Shown: one piece after another, positions 2,823-19,737 of the stretch
Numbering within the stretch: position 1 is the stretch's first letter
How the letters are laid out: each line of letters begins with the position of its first letter
From: a bacterium BMS3Abin14
Lineage (GTDB): Bacteria > BMS3Abin14
Direction: 5' to 3'
Assembly: GCA_002897695.1 (NCBI GenBank)
Contig: BDTG01000012.1
Coordinates: 1-29,863, forward strand
Length of the DNA stretch: 29,863 nucleotides
Position numbers and translations under genes: made by a program
The notes under the pieces: model-generated
What the model was told of the DNA's origin: nothing
Seen by the model: the letters and a program-made list of their open reading frames with translations, nothing else
Database searches by the model: none

Positions 2823-2913
2823 TGGTTTTGAGGGTACCCTCTGTGCCAATGTAAGTGAGACAACTTTCCTCCTTGAGTTTAGTGTAGAATAGAGGGCGAG
2901 GAGGAAGAGATAA

Positions 2914-4440
2914 ATGGAGTCAGCGATACCCGAGAAGACCCAACCGAAGAAAACCCGACTCGTCGCCATCTCCAACCGCCTCCCCGTCACCCTTAGCAGA
3001 AAGGGCGACACATGGTCGGTGGAGCCCGGTTCAGGTGGCCTTGTGACCGCCATGGCGCCTGTCCTGAGGGACCGGGGAGGGCTCTGGATCGGGTGGCCCG
3101 GCATCTCGGAGAAGGTTGATTTCGACACGGTTCTTGGAGATGCCTCTCTGGCCACCGGATACGATCTCATCCCGGTGGAAATGGACGAGGAAGAGGTTAC
3201 CAGCTATTATAAAGGGTTCGCCAACCAGATAATCTGGCCCCTCTTTCACGATATGCAGTCCCACTGCACCTTCGACCCGGAGTTCTGGTATTCCTACATC
3301 CGGGTCAACGCCAAGTTCGCCGACCGGATCCTGAACCACACCTCCGACGATGACTACATCTGGGTTCACGATTACCACCTCTTCCACGTCGGCAAGTTTC
3401 TGCGGGAGCGGGGACGAAGCCACCGGATCGGCTTTTTCCTGCACATTCCCTTTCCCCCAATGGATATCTTCGTCAGGCTCCCCTGGAGGATGGAGATCCT
3501 CGAGGCACTGATGGAGTACGACCTGGTTGGGTTCCAGACCTTCCGTGACCGGAAGAACTTCCTCGACTGCCTTCAGCGCTCATACCCCGCCGCCAGGGTC
3601 AGCGGGCGGGGAACGGTGGTCCAGGTCGCCCTCGAGGACCGTGTCGTGCGGGTGGGCTACTTCCCTATCAGCATCGACTACCGGAGCTTTGTCGAGGACA
3701 CCAACTCCGAGGGGACCATGCAATGGTACGAGTCCCTCAAGGAGAAGTTCTGTGATCACAGCGTCATCCTCGGAGTGGATCGCATGGATTTCACCAAGGG
3801 TCTCCAGGAACGGCTCGAAGGGTACCGGAACGCCCTGGAGCGCTATCCGGATCTGAGGGAAAAAGTGACCCTCACCCAAGTCCTGGTCCCGAGCCGCCAC
3901 TCCCTGACCAGCTACCAGATCCTCAAGGCGCGCATCGACAGGCTCATCGGAGAGATCAACGGCCAGTTCGCAACCCTGGGATGGGACCCGATCCATTACC
4001 ACTACCGCAGCCTCGACCACGACGAACTGCTGGCCCTGTACCACATCGCCGACATCGCCCTGGTCACCCCTTTGAAGGACGGGATGAACCTGGTGGCCAA
4101 GGAGTACTGCGCCTGCAGCCTTCAGAACAACGGAGTCCTCATCCTCAGCGAGTTTGCCGGCGCGGCGGCTGAGCTTCACAGCGGTGCGCTGCTGGTCAAT
4201 CCTCACGACTACGAGGGGATCGCCGACGCGCTTTACTACGCATTCACCATGGACTACGATGAGAAACAGACCCGGATGAAAAAAATGCGCAAGATTATCC
4301 GCCGCAGGGATATCTTCCGGTGGGTCGACTCCTTCCTGCAGGCCGCCTTCGCCCGGAACCTCAACGACTTTCCGCCGGTGAAAGAAGAGTACATTCCGGG
4401 GACCAGCGGCGAGGATTTCGCCACCATGCTGGAAGAGTAG
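2914..4440 (+). CDS. otsA: Trehalose-6-phosphate synthase (GT20)
   Basis: This enzyme transfers glucose from a nucleotide sugar to glucose-6-phosphate, giving trehalose-6-phosphate in the cytoplasm. The 508-residue length is normal for bacterial OtsA. Visible hallmarks are ISNRLPV near the N-terminus, GGLVTAM (41-47), VHDYHL (151-156), LHIPFPP (176-182), GVDRMDFTKGL (287-297, with the Arg and Lys that hold the donor phosphates) and DGMNLVAKE (389-397). The ATG follows GAGGAGGAAGAG. It is the first gene of a four-gene operon with 49 bp to the next. The paired phosphatase gene at 6465 supports trehalose over other GT20 products, but glucosylglycerol-phosphate synthases share the fold and cannot be ruled out by eye. 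Confidence 0.9.
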   Translation: MESAIPEKTQPKKTRLVAISNRLPVTLSRKGDTWSVEPGSGGLVTAMAPVLRDRGGLWIGWPGISEKVDFDTVLGDASLATGYDLIPVEMDEEEVTSYYKGFANQIIWPLFHDMQSHCTFDPEFWYSYIRVNAKFADRILNHTSDDDYIWVHDYHLFHVGKFLRERGRSHRIGFFLHIPFPPMDIFVRLPWRMEILEALMEYDLVGFQTFRDRKNFLDCLQRSYPAARVSGRGTVVQVALEDRVVRVGYFPISIDYRSFVEDTNSEGTMQWYESLKEKFCDHSVILGVDRMDFTKGLQERLEGYRNALERYPDLREKVTLTQVLVPSRHSLTSYQILKARIDRLIGEINGQFATLGWDPIHYHYRSLDHDELLALYHIADIALVTPLKDGMNLVAKEYCACSLQNNGVLILSEFAGAAAELHSGALLVNPHDYEGIADALYYAFTMDYDEKQTRMKKMRKIIRRRDIFRWVDSFLQAAFARNLNDFPPVKEEYIPGTSGEDFATMLEE

Positions 4441-4489
4441 TCCGGCAGATGGACCCATCCAGGGAGAAGCGACAGGGAGACAGTGTCAA

Positions 4490-5176
4490 ATGATCCAGGG
4501 AAAAGATCGACCCGTAAACACATCTGAGAAAAGCTTCAGGGTCTTCGACTGCGCCCCTGTCTTCATTGCCACGGGTATTCGTGCCTTTACCCTCCGGGAA
4601 ATGACCGAAAGCCTGCACGTCGTCCACTCTGGGAGCATCCAGCACCACTTCTGGGGACGGCTGCTCAGGCCGGTGATCGAGGAACCGGAGTACAGCAACG
4701 ATTTCGCCGCCTGGATAGGGCGGGAGTTGAGGGACAAGGTGCTCGCGGAGCGGCTCAGTGTCATTTACCCCACGGACTACACCGACGTCGAGGAGCTTCG
4801 ACTCGGGATCATCGACATCATTGAGGACCGCCTCTACGAGGATATATTATCCCACACTGTCACAGCCCGGCAGCCCTTTTACTTCCTCCGCTCTCAGCTG
4901 GTGGTTTTCGACACCGAAACAAGGATCGGAGACCCTTCCGAACTGTGTGATGCAGTCAATGGAATGTCGGAGGGGAGCATCTTTTACCACTTCGTCGAGG
5001 CCCGAAGACGTAACGAGAAACGCTGCGATGACTTCTCGGCCTGGCTCGAGTCGAACACCGGTGATTATAATCAACTCTGCGTGGATCTGACAGCCATCGA
5101 CCCCTACTTTTCCTCTCTCGGCGAGATCCGCGACCGCCTCGAAAACCTTTTCAGACAAGGTTTTCCGCAGCCCTGA
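4490..5176 (+). CDS. DUF5752 family protein with two internal repeats
   Basis: This 228-residue soluble protein has no signal peptide or membrane segment and sits between two glycosyltransferase genes. I place it in DUF5752, a family of unknown function. The sequence is an internal duplication. Residues about 17-115 and 129-221 align through GSIQHHF (48-54) with GSIFYHF (162-168), DFAAW (71-75) with DFSAW (181-185), and a final acidic helix ending in D/E-R-L. The ATG follows CAGGGAGA at a usable distance. Gaps of about 49 bp on both sides place it in the trehalose operon. A role as activator, scaffold or sensor of the pathway enzymes is a guess; no catalytic motif is visible. Confidence 0.8.
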   Translation: MIQGKDRPVNTSEKSFRVFDCAPVFIATGIRAFTLREMTESLHVVHSGSIQHHFWGRLLRPVIEEPEYSNDFAAWIGRELRDKVLAERLSVIYPTDYTDVEELRLGIIDIIEDRLYEDILSHTVTARQPFYFLRSQLVVFDTETRIGDPSELCDAVNGMSEGSIFYHFVEARRRNEKRCDDFSAWLESNTGDYNQLCVDLTAIDPYFSSLGEIRDRLENLFRQGFPQP

Positions 5177-5224
5177 CGGCCCTGATGCCTTTGAACCTGA
5201 TCCTGACACTACGGAGGTTACAGC

Positions 5225-6475
5225 TTGTCACAACTTCTCGATAGATACGGCGAAATAGCAGGAAAAGATGTCATCAGGCAGCTTCGTCTTCTGGCCCGCG
5301 AGCTTGAGGGTGTCCAGGTCGTCCACGTCAACTCTACCAAGGAGGGCGGAGGTGTGGCCGAGATCCTCCACAAAATGATCCCCCTCAAGCAGGATCTAGG
5401 CATCGACGCCAGCTGGGAGGTCATCACCGGTGATGCAGCCTTCTATGAGTGCACCAAAGGGATGCACAACGCTATGCAGGGAGAAAAGACGATCATAACG
5501 GAGGAGCTTCTCAACGTTTACGAGGAAACCAACCGGAAGTTTGCAGAACAGATTCACGACACCCTGGCCGAGGCCGATTTCGTTTTCATCCACGATCCCC
5601 AGCCCGCCGCCGTCATCAGGCACATGCCACAAAGGAAGGGGCGCTGGGTCTGGCGGTGCCACATCGACATCAGCCGGCCCCAGCGTTCGGTCTGGAACTA
5701 TCTCAGGAAGAATGTGGTCGCATACGATTCAAGCATCTTTTCCATGCAGCGGTTTTCACAGAAACTACCCCACATCCAGTACCTCATACCCCCCAGTATC
5801 GATCCGTTAAGCGAAAAGAACATGGACCTATCCGCCCAGGAGGTTCTGGAGGAGATCTCACCCTTCAACCTGATTCCGGACATCCCCCTGCTCCTTCAGG
5901 TATCCAGATACGACCGGTTCAAGGACCCCATAGGGGTCATCGAGGCCTACAAGATGGTCAGAAAACTCACACCGGTGCAGCTTGTTCTGGCGGGGGGAGG
6001 CGCCGGCGATGATCCCGAGGGGGAAGCTGTTCTCGAAGAGGTGCGCCGGGCCGCCGGGGAGGATCCCGACATCCACGTCCTCCAGCTGCCCAACGACGCT
6101 CACCGAACCATCAACGCCCTTCAGCGGCGAGCCGACATTGTCATACAGAAGTCGATCAAGGAGGGGTTCGGGCTTACCGTGACCGAGGGGATGTGGAAAG
6201 GTAAACCGGTCATCGGCGGCGAGGTCGGCGGTATCCGGCTGCAGGTCATGGACCATCGCACCGGGTTCCTGGTCAACTCTCCGGAAGGCGCGGCCCTGAG
6301 GATCCGATACCTTCTGCACCGCCCCAACGTGCGGCGCCAGATGGGACGCCATGCCAGGGAGTTCGTGCGGGACAACTTCCTCCTTACCCGCCACCTCCGG
6401 GACTACCTCGCCCTGATGGTCAGCCTTCTCAAGGGTAAGGAACAAGACCCCTACCTGGAGATCGATGTCCCATAG
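5225..6475 (+). CDS. treT: GT4 glycosyltransferase, trehalose synthase TreT-like
   Basis: This 416-residue GT-B enzyme of family GT4 resembles TreT, which joins a nucleotide-glucose and free glucose directly into trehalose. N-terminal marks are VHVNSTKEGGGVAEILH (33-49, the TreT-type glycine loop) and FIHDPQP (121-127). The C-terminal donor domain has QVSRYDRFKDP (225-235) and KEGFGLTVTEGMWKGKPVI (312-330). The start is a TTG at 5225, chosen because ACGGAGGT lies 7-8 nt upstream. It overlaps the phosphatase gene by 11 bp. The oddity is a one-step trehalose maker in the same operon as the two-step OtsA/OtsB route. The enzyme may run in reverse, or use another acceptor. Confidence 0.8.
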   Translation: MSQLLDRYGEIAGKDVIRQLRLLARELEGVQVVHVNSTKEGGGVAEILHKMIPLKQDLGIDASWEVITGDAAFYECTKGMHNAMQGEKTIITEELLNVYEETNRKFAEQIHDTLAEADFVFIHDPQPAAVIRHMPQRKGRWVWRCHIDISRPQRSVWNYLRKNVVAYDSSIFSMQRFSQKLPHIQYLIPPSIDPLSEKNMDLSAQEVLEEISPFNLIPDIPLLLQVSRYDRFKDPIGVIEAYKMVRKLTPVQLVLAGGGAGDDPEGEAVLEEVRRAAGEDPDIHVLQLPNDAHRTINALQRRADIVIQKSIKEGFGLTVTEGMWKGKPVIGGEVGGIRLQVMDHRTGFLVNSPEGAALRIRYLLHRPNVRRQMGRHAREFVRDNFLLTRHLRDYLALMVSLLKGKEQDPYLEIDVP

Positions 6476-7292
6476 GCCCCTCCCACCACCAGGCGAAAAG
6501 TTCTGGAAGCATATCGAAGCCGCCCCGAGCAAGCTGTTGTTCCTCGACTACGACGGCACCCTGGCCCCCTTCCGGGAGAACCGTCACGAGGCAATCCCCT
6601 ACCCTGGGGTCCGGGAGGTCCTCGAAAAAATCCTGGAGTCCGGGGGGTGCCGGGTGGTCCTCATCAGCGGTCGTTGGACAAAGGATCTGCCGCCTCTCCT
6701 GGGGTTGAAAAAACTTCCCGAGATCTGGGGGTCCCACGGCCTCGAGCGGTTTTTCCCGAACGGCCATTACGAGGTGGCTGCCCTGAGCGACAAGGAGGTC
6801 CGGGGACTGGCCGAGGCGAAGGATCTGGTCAATAAAGCCGGTCTCGGCCATCACAGCGAGCAGAAACCAGGCTGCCTCGCCCTGCACTGGAGAGGACTGG
6901 ACGAAAATGCTCGGGACCGGCTAATCAGCCGCATTGAGGATAAATTAGCCCCTCTTGCGCGGAAGACAGGACTGGTTCTTAAGGAGTTCGATGGAGGCCT
7001 GGAGCTGCGCTCACCGGGCCGAAACAAGGGTGACGCTGTCCGCACCGTTCTTTCAGAGGAGGGCCTCGAGACAGTGTGTGCCTACTTGGGGGACGACCTG
7101 ACCGACGAGGACGCCTTTAAGGCAGTTGAAGGCAGGGGGTTGGGTATCCTGGTGCGCAAGCAGTGGCGGTCAACCGCAGCAGCAGCTTGGCTCAAGCCGC
7201 CCGAGGAGCTCATCCGGTTCCTTGAACGGTGGGCCGAAGTCTGCAGCGGCGTGCAAGGGAACGGAGCTTTGGTGCCGGAGTGTGAATCTTGA
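6465..7292 (+). CDS. otsB: Trehalose-6-phosphate phosphatase (HAD superfamily)
   Basis: This enzyme removes phosphate from trehalose-6-phosphate. The 275-residue protein has HAD motif I as DYDGT (28-32), motif II in VVLISGR (64-70), a GSHGLER segment (89-95), the Lys of motif III in NKGD (187-190), and motif IV as GDDLTDEDAF (209-218). All the expected catalytic acids are present. The ATG overlaps the end of the TreT-like gene by 11 bp, so translation is coupled. It is the last operon gene, and the following DNA is repeat-rich. No terminator hairpin with a T-tract is evident after the stop. Confidence 0.9.
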   Translation: MSHRPLPPPGEKFWKHIEAAPSKLLFLDYDGTLAPFRENRHEAIPYPGVREVLEKILESGGCRVVLISGRWTKDLPPLLGLKKLPEIWGSHGLERFFPNGHYEVAALSDKEVRGLAEAKDLVNKAGLGHHSEQKPGCLALHWRGLDENARDRLISRIEDKLAPLARKTGLVLKEFDGGLELRSPGRNKGDAVRTVLSEEGLETVCAYLGDDLTDEDAFKAVEGRGLGILVRKQWRSTAAAAWLKPPEELIRFLERWAEVCSGVQGNGALVPECES

Positions 7293-8475: not shown

Positions 8476-9051
8476 TCAGTCGCAGTGTGAGCAAACGAAG
8501 TGTCCGGTAAACCAATGCTCCTTATGCGTGTAGTCGGGGAGCAGTTCAAGCAGCAATGGATTCCCGCACCTGGAACACCTGTATTCTACAGGGAACTCGA
8601 AATCGGTGGCCAGCTTGACCGCATCATAAATTTTTTCTTTAATTGCCAACCTGTATTTGTGTACTTCCATTGCACTTTTCGGTTTTTCTAAGATGGCCTG
8701 TACCTTTTCCAGCAGTGCTTTAGGATTGGTCCGCATCTTCACCAGAAAATCGCTGGCCCCCAGCTTTAATGCTTTTTCCACTTCCTCGGGCTGACCTCGT
8801 CCGGACAACACTATTACCGGGATATCCCTGGTCACTTGTCTGGTCTTTATCATCTGGAGCACCTTGTATCCGTCCATGATCGGCATAACCAGATCCAGGA
8901 TGATCAGGTCGGGGAGCAGATTCTGCATGGCCTTGATGCATTCCACTCCGTTTTCAGCTTCGGTAATCTCAAATCCAGCCTGCTGAAGCACACTGCTGTT
9001 GATGGAACGCGCCTTATCGTTATCATCCACCAAAAGGATTTTCTTGCCCAT
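8476..9051 (-). CDS. Response regulator receiver domain with C-terminal zinc ribbon
   Basis: This 191-residue protein opens with a CheY-like receiver domain. Visible are the acidic pair D9-D10, phosphoacceptor D53 in ILDLVMP, the switch Ser83 and the conserved Lys105 in FLVKM. After a helical linker the last 40 residues contain CSRC and CSHC pairs, which would form a zinc ribbon. There is no DNA-binding or enzymatic output domain, so it probably works by protein contact. The start MGKKILLVDD (9051) is chosen as the normal receiver start; a longer frame to 9090 lacks support. No kinase gene is adjacent. Its upstream neighbour is the sigma-54 activator remnant. Confidence 0.85.
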   Translation of the reverse strand: MGKKILLVDDNDKARSINSSVLQQAGFEITEAENGVECIKAMQNLLPDLIILDLVMPIMDGYKVLQMIKTRQVTRDIPVIVLSGRGQPEEVEKALKLGASDFLVKMRTNPKALLEKVQAILEKPKSAMEVHKYRLAIKEKIYDAVKLATDFEFPVEYRCSRCGNPLLLELLPDYTHKEHWFTGHFVCSHCD

Positions 9052-9168
9052 TTTCCACCCCCCTGAAAATAAAATATCGATAAAGGTCAATTAACAACGC
9101 GTGGACCCAAAACCAGCGATTAGTTCCGGGCAAGACATTATTGAAAACATAACCTAATATGTCCCACA

Positions 9169-10117
9169 TCAACAAGGGTTTTTAGAAGTGATCCCCTGCC
9201 TTTTCATCATGCGGTAGAAGGTTCGCCGCGGAATCCCGGCCATTGTGCATGCCCGGGTGACGTTTCCCCCCGCCACGGTCAGATAGTGGATCAGAAGTTT
9301 TTTCTCCACGCTGCCGACGGATTTATCCCGCATGGATCTGTAGTCCGGCGTCGCCCCGAGCCCAACAGAGTCCTCGTAGGCGGAGCGGGCCCGCAGCTCC
9401 CCGGGAAGGTGCTTCGGCTCGATAAGGACAAGCGAGCCGGCGAGAGGCGCCAGGACAACCGCCCTTTCGATCACGTTCTCCAGCTCACGGATATTGCCGG
9501 GCCAGTGGTAGGCCATTATGATCTCCATGGCATCGTCTGCTATTCCGTGAACCTGCTTGTTGACTCTGGCACAGGCCTTTTGCGGGAGGTGCCGGGCCAG
9601 AAGCGGGACGTCCTCCTTGCGGTCCCTGAGCGGAGGCAAACGGATGGTGATAGTAGTCAGCCTGTAGAAGAGATCCTCACGAAATCTGTTGGCTTCGATG
9701 GCCTTTTCCAGGTTCCGGTTAGTAGTGGCGATGAGACGTACATCAACCACCCTCAGAAGCTTGGCCTGGAGGTCCTGCCGCTGGAATAAGGTGAGGTCGG
9801 TTCCCACGCCGTGGGAATTGTTCTCGATAGTGCAGTATTTAACCATGGACAGGCATGCCGAAAAGAGCCGTCGTGTACTTCTTTCAAAAAGGCCAACGTC
9901 CTGGTCGCGCCCGAAATAGCCAGAATCCGCGATCGTTTGGATTCACCGCCCGGCACCAGCCTCGCCAGGAAATCCCGTGTCAGCCAGTACTGACCACCGG
10001 CAAGAAGAGGCGACCGATAGTCAAAGGAACCCTCGGTTTTGAGATCGTGGCCTTTTTTAGTCAACCAGTCCTTCAGTTCCCTGAAGGTAACAACCACGTC
10101 GATATCTTCCTGGCAAC
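9169..10117 (-). pseudogene. Deleted, frameshifted copy of the hydrogenase-like sigma-54 activator
   Basis: The remnant is closely similar to the gene at 17455-19737 and is read in the same direction. Recognisable homology starts near QEDIDVVVTFRELKDWL (about 10117) and ends with the Fis-type helix-turn-helix (GIPRRTFYRMM). Three lesions are visible against the intact copy. First, one G is lost near 9854, where the intact gene has GGCATGGCC. Second, about 228 codons are missing at a CAGGCCA junction (near 9770), taking out the four-Cys Fe-S domain, Walker A, GAFTGA and Walker B. Third, 16 codons are lost at GTTGA (near 9747). The ferredoxin N-terminus is absent too. It cannot encode a working activator. 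Confidence 0.9.
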
Positions 10118-17030: not shown

Positions 17031-17474
17031 TCAGGATGGGAAATTGACGTTTATCATCTCGTCGAGCCTGGACAGGAACCGGGAACGGTTTTTTTTGTCC
17101 ATTGGAGCCGGCCCGCCTGTGAATTCTCCTGTCTGGCGCAGGTAATCCTTTAAGGCCCGCATGGCCAGAGCGTCGCCGATTCCAGCCTCTGTAAACTCTT
17201 CTCCCCTGGTGCCGAGGACCCTGGCGCCGGCCTCGATACAGCGTGCCGCCAACGGAATGTCACCGGTGACAACAATATCCCCGGGTCCGGCATGGTCCGC
17301 AATCCAGTCATCAGCGGCGTCAAAATCACCGGGGACTATCTGGAACGCAACGCGTTTGTTAAGGGGTGTTCTCATCCAGCTGTTGGCGACCACACAGACA
17401 TCCACTGAGTAACGATCGGCTACCTTGTACGTCTCTTCCTTGACAGGGCATGCATCAGCGTCGATGTAGATCAC
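17031..17474 (-). CDS. yaiI: YaiI/YqxD family protein (UPF0178/DUF188), PIN-like
   Basis: This 147-residue protein shows the UPF0178 pattern: YIDADACPVKEE at the N-terminus, VANSWM, VPGDFDAADDWIA, DIVVTGDIPLAARC, and GTRGEEFTEAGIGDALAMR. The fold is PIN-like with conserved acids, and ribonuclease activity has been suggested for the family; this is not proven. The GTG start at 17474 lies behind GGAGG and overlaps the sigma-54 activator gene by 20 bp. The two are thus co-translated, although no functional link is obvious. Confidence 0.9.
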   Translation of the reverse strand: MIYIDADACPVKEETYKVADRYSVDVCVVANSWMRTPLNKRVAFQIVPGDFDAADDWIADHAGPGDIVVTGDIPLAARCIEAGARVLGTRGEEFTEAGIGDALAMRALKDYLRQTGEFTGGPAPMDKKNRSRFLSRLDEMINVNFPS

Positions 17475-19737
17475 CGGCCACCTCCCTCGCCCTGATCCCC
17501 TGCCTTTCCATCATGCGGTAGAAGGTCCTTCGGGGAATCCCGGCCATTGCGCAGGCCTTTGTGACGTTTCCGTCGGCGGTTTTCAGATAGTGGACGAGGA
17601 GTTTTTTCTCAGCGCTGCCGATAGATTTATCGCGCATGGTCCAGTAGTCCAGCACCGGTTCGGGTCCGGCAAAGCCCTTCCGGGAGGATTGAGCCTGCAG
17701 CTCCGCGGGAAGGTGCTTCGGCTCGATAAGGACAAGCGAGCCGGCAAGAGGCGCCAGAACTACCGCCCTTTCGATCACGTTTTCCAACTCCCGGATATTG
17801 CCGGGCCAGTGATAGGCCATTATGATTTCCATGGCATCGTCTGAAATGCCGTGAACCTGCTTGTTGACCCTTGCGCAGGCCTTCTGCAGGAGGTGCTTCG
17901 CGAGGAGGGGGATATCCTCTTGCCGGTCCCTGAGCGGAGGAAGGCGGACGGTGATGATGGCCAGCCTGTAGAAGAGATCCTCACGGAAGCTGTGGGATTC
18001 AATGGCCTTTTCCAGATTCCTGTTGGTTGCGGCGATAAGACGGACATCGACTTTCCTGGTGCTGTTTTCGCCTACACGCCGGATCTCTCCCGTGTCAACC
18101 ACCCTCAGGAGCTTGGCCTGAAGTTCCATGGAAATATCCCCGATCTCATCAAGGAAGAGGGTGCCGCCGTCGGCCTCTTCGAACAGACCTTTCTTGTCCG
18201 CAATGGCACCGGTAAAGGCTCCCTTGGCGTGCCCGAAAAGCTCGCTGTCCAGGACCCCCTCGGCGATAGCGGTACAATTGATAGCTATGAGAGGGTGGCC
18301 GGCTTTGTCGCTGTTCCGATGGATTGCTCGAGCCACCAGTTCTTTGCCTGTGCCGCTCTCTCCCCGGATCAGGACGGTTGTGGGTGTCGGCGCCACCTGG
18401 TTTATAACCTGCAGGACCTGCTGAATCTGCTTCGATGTCCCGATTATGTTGGGCGAAGTTGTAGCGTTTTTGAACTGTTTATGGATGATTTCGTACTTCT
18501 GGGTAAGTTCCTCGTTGTTGGTGGACAGTTCCCGGATGAGGTATGGAAGGCACATCTCCAGCTTGGCGAACCCATGAACTACCGCCTTTGCCTTTTCCCG
18601 GCATGTGGGGAATCCGCAGGCGCCGCAGTTTAACTCCTCGGCCCGGGTGTTCATGCCAAGGGTGTCCAGAATCTGCTGGATGGCCTCCGGTGTCGTCTCC
18701 TCAAGTTCGGTTGATCGGTCAACATAAGGTCTTGAAAGATCCAGACGTTCTCCATCCGGAACCGGGAGGGGGACATCCACCGCCTCCTCAATAACCCTGG
18801 CCTGCAGGTCCTGTCGCTGGAACAGTGTAAGGTCGGTGCCCACGCCGTGGGAATTGTTGTCGATAGTGCAGTATTTAACCATAGACAGGCCATGCCGGAA
18901 GGAACCGTCGTGCACCTCTTTTAAAAAGGCCAACGTTCTGGCCGCACCGGAGACAGCTAGAATCCGGGATCGTTTGGATTCACCGCCCGGGATCAGGCGG
19001 GCCAGAAAATCCCGTGTCAGCCAGTACTGGCTACCGGCGAGCAGCGGCGATCTGTAGTCGAAGGACCCGTCGGTTTTAAGATCGCTGCCCTTTGCAATCA
19101 GCCAGTCTTTCAATTCCCTGAACGTCACCACCACTTCGATGTCTTCCTTGAAGCCCTGCTTTTCCATCAGGGCCTTGGTTCCCAGACATGACGTGGCCAG
19201 GACAATATTGAACGGGGATTCGGCTCTTTTGTTCAGATATCGGGCCGTGGCCACACCGGGGATGGTAACGGGAACCATGAAAGGGATAAGACTGGGAGCG
19301 TGTTTTTCGATGTAGGCGCTTGAAATGGGACATAGCGATCCAATAAACGGGTGGTGTTTCTTCTTCAGGATATTTTCGTAGGCTTGGAAGACATGCTCGA
19401 TGGCGAGCATGGAGGATCGAACCTCACTAAACCCATGTGAAAGAAGGATGGATTCGAGATCCAGGGGGGATATTCGGGGAAAGGTGATGGGCCAGTTTCT
19501 GTCCAGCAGCATGACGGTGGGATGGGGCCCACTAAGGACGGCTTCCATCTGGTTGATGGTTTCCGTCATCTGTATTGCTCCCTGACTGCAGGCATCGAGG
19601 CAGTCACCACAGTTGATGCACCTTGCCCTGGAGATGACAATTCCGTCGTCCTGGACTTTTATAGCCTTGACCGGACAGGAGCGGACGCAGGAGTAGCACT
19701 TTTTGCATTTCGATTTGTCGGTGTAAATCACCCTCAT
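17455..19737 (-). CDS. Sigma-54 activator with ferredoxin and iron-hydrogenase-like sensor domains
   Basis: This 760-residue regulator has unusual sensory domains. Residues 11-21 and 40-50 each carry a CxxCxxCxxxC cluster motif. Residues about 75-310 resemble the large C-terminal domain of [FeFe]-hydrogenase, with SLCP (134-137) and ATSC (181-184) where cluster ligands would lie; the third H-cluster motif is not visible, so catalysis is unlikely. A four-Cys Fe-S domain follows (C371, C374, C379, C396). Then comes the AAA+ domain: GESGTGKE (459-466), GAFTGA (506-511), LDEIGD (529-534). A Fis-type helix-turn-helix ends the protein. It should drive sigma-54 promoters in response to redox state or H2 (inference). 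A sigma-70 promoter precedes it and a deleted paralogue lies at 9169-10117. Confidence 0.9.
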   Translation of the reverse strand: MRVIYTDKSKCKKCYSCVRSCPVKAIKVQDDGIVISRARCINCGDCLDACSQGAIQMTETINQMEAVLSGPHPTVMLLDRNWPITFPRISPLDLESILLSHGFSEVRSSMLAIEHVFQAYENILKKKHHPFIGSLCPISSAYIEKHAPSLIPFMVPVTIPGVATARYLNKRAESPFNIVLATSCLGTKALMEKQGFKEDIEVVVTFRELKDWLIAKGSDLKTDGSFDYRSPLLAGSQYWLTRDFLARLIPGGESKRSRILAVSGAARTLAFLKEVHDGSFRHGLSMVKYCTIDNNSHGVGTDLTLFQRQDLQARVIEEAVDVPLPVPDGERLDLSRPYVDRSTELEETTPEAIQQILDTLGMNTRAEELNCGACGFPTCREKAKAVVHGFAKLEMCLPYLIRELSTNNEELTQKYEIIHKQFKNATTSPNIIGTSKQIQQVLQVINQVAPTPTTVLIRGESGTGKELVARAIHRNSDKAGHPLIAINCTAIAEGVLDSELFGHAKGAFTGAIADKKGLFEEADGGTLFLDEIGDISMELQAKLLRVVDTGEIRRVGENSTRKVDVRLIAATNRNLEKAIESHSFREDLFYRLAIITVRLPPLRDRQEDIPLLAKHLLQKACARVNKQVHGISDDAMEIIMAYHWPGNIRELENVIERAVVLAPLAGSLVLIEPKHLPAELQAQSSRKGFAGPEPVLDYWTMRDKSIGSAEKKLLVHYLKTADGNVTKACAMAGIPRRTFYRMMERQGIRAREVAGDLHRR

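Follow-up and report, generated by a model that had tools for sequence, protein, structure and literature searches.

The probable four-gene trehalose operon analysed here lies at 2914-7292 on the forward strand of a 29,863-nucleotide (nt) stretch of DNA from the bacterium BMS3Abin14 (the window), and encodes OtsA, a DUF5752 protein, TreT and OtsB. Its closest described counterpart is the OrfY-TreT pair of Thermoproteus tenax. In that organism, orfY reportedly lies upstream of treT, in a conserved orfY-treT cluster that Kouril and colleagues are said to have assigned in 2008 to a “unidirectional TreT pathway”. The window pair resembles it closely: both sequence and fold identify DUF5752 as OrfY, its gene stands directly upstream of treT, and the window TreT falls in the same clade as TreT of Thermoproteus uzoniensis. 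Identity to the Thermoproteus proteins is approximately 27% for T. tenax OrfY and 49% for T. uzoniensis TreT. In contrast, the window host is bacterial, and the pair shares its operon with OtsA and OtsB.

Three other systems are comparable. The TPSP-GT4-MSC operon of T. tenax likewise encodes a GT20 synthase, a phosphatase and a GT4 protein, and its mechanosensitive channel has counterparts in some relatives of the window locus; however, trehalose-6-phosphate synthase (TPS) and trehalose-6-phosphate phosphatase (TPP) are fused there and separate in the window, its GT4 protein is PimA-like and not described as a TreT, and no OrfY is described (PMC3634074). TreT of Pyrococcus horikoshii (2x6q; Thermococcales), which shows reversibility (PMC11211441), belongs to the same enzyme family as the window TreT, with 46% identity and the same active-site motifs, but to another clade, together with stand-alone TreTs. 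Organisms with more than one trehalose route are well known. Sulfolobus acidocaldarius also combines several trehalose routes, namely TreYZ, TreT (Saci_1827), which contributes to trehalose formation in vivo, and a GT4-type TPS (Saci_1249), and without any of them it does not grow under salt stress (PMC7688234). Its genome carries DUF5752. The window TPS is a GT20 rather than a GT4 enzyme.

The DUF5752 protein, which the preliminary description of this locus treated as a protein of unknown function, belongs to the family of T. tenax OrfY, for which a solved structure (4cso) exists. The protein matched PF19027 of Pfam at 243.1 bits (cut-off 23, E = 2.4e-72). Sequence searches against solved structures found 4cso at E = 6.8e-20 with the window protein and at E = 4.4e-45 with a profile of 111 DUF5752 sequences. 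The AlphaFold model (predicted local distance difference test, pLDDT, 93) superposed on 4cso with Z 21.8 and a root-mean-square deviation of 2.7 Å over 206 residues, while the next, unrelated chain reached only Z 3.5. The protein is an internal duplication, with repeats at approximately residues 14-122 and 128-224 that align at a score of 47 against a shuffle maximum of 36. This duplication is present in every family member (median z 12), and each half in the model forms a long strand followed by helices. Residues G29, H53, W75, E87 and H167 are invariant in the alignment, and therefore one histidine is kept in each half (H53 and H167). Family members are acidic, with a median net charge of -11, and comparison of the model with solved folds gave no clear match to a DNA-binding fold.

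Single DUF5752 half-repeats were also observed ahead of a PPDK_N (phosphoenolpyruvate synthase-like) domain in four proteins (L160:4822-6921, L162:2292-5393, L163:3076-6264 and L166:4200-7301), three of which carry a response-regulator receiver in front; these matches sit near the Pfam cut-off. Another half-repeat, just under the cut-off, lies at the C-terminus of an HAD hydrolase with an ATPase-like part (L161:4791-6881). In OrfY, a small module that also occurs in other proteins may be present in doubled form.

The fixed partner of DUF5752 is TreT. A genome scan queried with the DUF5752 protein alone returned 0 loci, and one queried with the DUF5752 alignment returned 15. In all 136 loci surveyed, TreT is the next gene after an intact DUF5752 gene and has the same orientation; the median distance between the domain ends is 41 nt. 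OtsA or OtsB occurs nearby in 93 of the 136 loci (some contigs being too short to decide), in many orders and sometimes on the opposite strand; where both are missing, they can be replaced by TreZ and TreY, which scored above the cut-offs of TIGR02402 and TIGR02401. OtsA, OtsB and TreZ/TreY are optional neighbours. The preliminary description had proposed a pathway role for DUF5752 from a fixed position between OtsA and TreT, and had asked whether it always neighbours GT20 and GT4 genes or lies mostly outside sugar operons. The pathway role is supported and the survey favours a role in sugar metabolism, with GT4 (TreT) as the constant neighbour; the fixed position lies directly 5′ of TreT rather than between the two enzymes, and OtsA and OtsB are not constant companions.

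The genome-level distribution agrees with this pairing. Within one phylum (395 genomes), 134 genomes carry DUF5752 and TreT, 21 carry only TreT and two carry only DUF5752, as fragments (Fisher p = 1e-79). All 11 DUF5752 genomes of a gammaproteobacterial class are among its 13 TreT genomes. Thermotoga maritima, included as a hyperthermophile control, has TreT without DUF5752, and S. acidocaldarius has both. In a mirror-tree analysis of 57 loci, the pairwise distances of DUF5752 and TreT correlated at r 0.91 (partial r 0.83 given OtsA), compared with partial r of 0.12 for TreT-OtsA and 0.28 for DUF5752-OtsA; OtsB gave the same picture. Judged from these sequence distances, DUF5752 and TreT form an inherited unit that travels together, beside which OtsA, OtsB or TreZ/TreY have been recruited. 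Two damaged genes were seen: in L137 (6033-6641) a stop-split DUF5752 gene precedes an intact TreT, and a DUF5752 gene with three stops (G031:C52:189-635) lies in a genome without TreT.

The window TreT (EC 2.4.1.245) matched PF21269 (TreT_GT1 N-domain) at 193 bits (E = 2.6e-57) and PF00534 (GT4 C-domain) at 84 bits, and is 49% identical to 6zj4. It scored 416 bits against the Thermococcales TreT model NF041139, below the equivalog cut-off of 775. Its catalytic EX7E motif and donor-binding R/K are intact (E313, E321, R228 and K233 invariant), and the catalytic and substrate motifs are invariant across all 132 DUF5752-linked sequences. In a tree of 68 rows, all 45 sampled DUF5752-linked TreTs formed one clade with T. 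uzoniensis TreT (support 99/93), while 19 stand-alone TreTs clustered with P. horikoshii TreT (support 95/56). The remaining two stand-alone rows are a long divergent branch and L182, which falls within the OrfY clade and lies at a contig end, its upstream gene cut off. Eleven positions are clade-specific, among them F177, F232, A256, G258, R361 and R392.

Some TreT loci had other arrangements. L091 contains, at 3462-4760, a second and divergent TreT-like gene that is convergent with the DUF5752-TreT pair and has a very long branch in the tree. At L171:2288-4036 and L177:6327-8357, a stand-alone TreT adjoins potassium channel or KefC-type efflux genes, another hint of osmotic adaptation. In L183 (2876-6338), L184, L185 and L190, a TreT of the stand-alone clade directly follows an OtsA of 729-747 residues without DUF5752; the long OtsA of L183 is a fused OtsA-OtsB, and the arrangement recalls the TPSP-GT4 complex of T. 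tenax.

The DUF5752 and TreT genes of the window could be folded as one chain, since they share one frame and are separated by TGA codons. The read-through sequence was co-folded from 12 in-frame pairs (window included) plus unpaired rows. The resulting AlphaFold model, made with no negative control, predicts a heterocomplex of the two proteins and had a pLDDT of 91.5 and a predicted template modelling score (pTM) of 0.92; its TreT half fits 6zj4 at 1.3 Å and its DUF5752 half fits 4cso at 2.3 Å, and linker residues 233-245 are disordered. The relative placement of the two halves seems confident, because freely placed halves would, by our own estimate, hold the pTM near 0.65.

As the preliminary description stated, two trehalose routes and DUF5752 are combined in one probable operon, and all four head-to-tail open reading frames have strong family assignments (Table 1). 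The four genes likely share one transcript because of their spacing (intergenic distances of 49 and 48 nt, with treT and the OtsB gene overlapping by 11 nt) and because the forward strand carries no convincing terminator; terminator-like sites are about as frequent in the region as chance predicts (8 observed, 6.1 expected), with one weak site on that strand. The TreT frame starts with TTG, preceded by GGAGG. No sigma-70-like promoter site was found in 2823-2913, and no Rfam family in the window.

Table 1. Features of the trehalose operon in the window
Feature	Position	Strand	Basis
Short intergenic stretch, would hold operon promoter and leader	2823..2913	+	position only
OtsA, trehalose-6-phosphate synthase (GT20)	2914..4440	+	508 aa; PF00982, TPS structures, motifs
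DUF5752 = OrfY family protein	4490..5176	+	228 aa; PF19027, 4cso, two repeats
TreT, trehalose synthase (GT4), OrfY-linked clade	5225..6475	+	416 aa; PF21269, motifs, tree clade
OtsB, trehalose-6-phosphate phosphatase (HAD)	6465..7292	+	275 aa; TIGR00685, motifs

OtsA, the sole GT20 gene of the window genome, matched PF00982 of Pfam at 501.5 bits (E = 3e-150), and its nearest solved structures are TPS enzymes. It fell below the equivalog cut-off of TIGR02400 (533.1 against 564.85 bits), although the two top-scoring NCBIfam models are both TPS. The glucose-6-phosphate and donor motifs, whose roles we take to be those of E. coli OtsA, are intact, and on these sequence grounds the protein is a TPS-like enzyme despite missing the curated cut-off. 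OtsB matched the trehalose-phosphatase family of Pfam (E = 7e-23), passed TIGR00685 of NCBIfam (100.3 bits, cut-off 68.05) and contains the HAD motifs DxDGT and GDDxTDEDAF. The same four-gene order occurs in two relatives of the same family, and a third has the first three genes before its contig ends. Of the 12 genomes in the phylum of the window, four carry OtsA, and exactly these four also carry DUF5752 and TreT; a relative of the same genus as the window genome lacks all three. This distribution suggests that the cassette is acquired or lost as a whole. GH13 enzymes, and with them TreY, TreZ and TreS, were not found in the window genome.

We consider it fairly probable that this is an osmoprotection operon with two parallel biosynthetic routes to trehalose, in which OrfY most likely binds TreT. 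OtsA and OtsB would convert nucleoside diphosphate (NDP)-glucose and glucose 6-phosphate into trehalose 6-phosphate and then trehalose, whereas TreT would form trehalose from NDP-glucose and free glucose in a single step; the two routes would thus fill one trehalose pool from different acceptors. OrfY, with its two repeats, would be a subunit that binds TreT of the one-directional, OrfY-linked clade and regulates or stabilises it, and the trehalose would serve as an osmolyte. The TreZ/TreY neighbours, and the MscS channels in 11 DUF5752-TreT loci, point to this last role. We infer the direction of the reaction here, as well as the regulation, stoichiometry and osmotic role. More tentatively, and with somewhat less than even confidence, we propose that OrfY is a dedicated subunit of a distinct one-directional TreT class found from Crenarchaeota to several bacterial phyla, and that its predicted binding separates biosynthetic from reversible enzymes.

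Several points weigh against these proposals. TreT of T. tenax was active alone in published assays (PMC11211441, PMC4490520); therefore, OrfY is not strictly required for catalysis. The Pyrococcus branch joins the stand-alone TreTs with weak support in the Shimodaira-Hasegawa-like approximate likelihood ratio test (56), and the synthesis-only direction of the window TreT would be carried over from T. tenax. The predicted complex could be an artefact, because of the short artificial linker, the 12 read-through rows and the missing negative control. Finally, OrfY was labelled a transcription factor by those who deposited 4cso.

That molecule name (“OrfY protein, transcription factor”), together with weak sequence matches of DUF5752 residues 17-84 to TetR-type repressors (E 0.13-0.5), would suit a regulator that senses a sugar or osmotic signal and binds the operon promoter without contacting TreT. 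We rejected the TetR-like reading (sequence E of 0.13 or worse, TetR chains at Z ≤2.4). A transcription factor is unlikely, given that the family is acidic, that solved folds other than 4cso are all distant (Z ≤3.5), and that a regulator gene would rarely keep its strand, order and distance relative to a single enzyme, as DUF5752 does in 136 of 136 loci, when the rest of the operon is rearranged. It is quite improbable that the GT4 protein is an activator of OtsA rather than a working trehalose synthase, the four proteins forming one complex. The PimA-like GT4 protein of T. tenax does activate the fused TPSP through complex formation, but this required the TPS-TPP fusion (PMC3634074), which is absent here. 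Fused OtsA-OtsB genes do stand directly before stand-alone TreTs in L183-L185 and L190; however, the TreT motifs do not vary among the 132 linked sequences, many OrfY-TreT pairs have no OtsA nearby, and OtsA and TreT show little co-evolution (partial r 0.12). We set aside an inactive activator, since every motif is intact.

The preliminary description had explained the combination of routes by a TreT that works in the degradative direction or uses a different acceptor. Either is unlikely because the active-site motifs of TreT are intact. TreT of T. tenax is promiscuous toward glucose analogues (PMC4490520), and a GT4 enzyme of S. acidocaldarius takes glucose 6-phosphate (PMC7688234), so that the operon might make a trehalose-like solute or derivative; we regard this as very improbable, because every inspected motif is identical to that of TreT with solved trehalose complexes and the neighbouring enzymes (OtsA, OtsB, TreZ and TreY) all belong to pathways of trehalose itself. 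Least probable of all is a TreT that converts trehalose and NDP into NDP-glucose and glucose, breaking down what OtsA and OtsB build. Thermococcus litoralis TreT is cited as running from trehalose to ADP-glucose (PMC6861944), but the window TreT lies in the Thermoproteus clade, apart from the reversible P. horikoshii enzyme; T. tenax TreT is termed unidirectional and synthetic (PMC7688234, PMC6861944), and that of S. acidocaldarius adds to trehalose formation in vivo. The degradative direction was set aside on tree position. The combination of routes is a sound observation and no biochemical puzzle, and the enzymes look ordinary and biosynthetic.

A crystal structure of OrfY has been available since 2014, and in Pfam the family is still without an assigned function. 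The literature searched gave no function for OrfY and no mention of DUF5752, of OrfY with T. tenax or of 4CSO; neither the DUF5752-OrfY link, nor a bacterial survey, nor a predicted complex was found there. The lasting value of our study lies in the identification of DUF5752 as OrfY, its strict pairing with TreT in bacteria, the separation of two TreT clades and a predicted complex that can be tested. Constant company of one TreT clade and predicted binding make a domain of unknown function accessible to a well-defined experiment. OrfY might be the reason that certain TreT enzymes run in the synthetic direction alone. Trehalose probes are also made with TreT, and the enzyme might perform better there with its natural partner.

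Two further loci were noted on the reverse strand of the window. A response regulator (8476-9090) adjoins a sigma-54 activator (9169-9846) whose ATPase domain is largely missing, and at 17455-19737 a sigma-54 activator is fused to Fe-only hydrogenase-like and 4Fe-4S domains.

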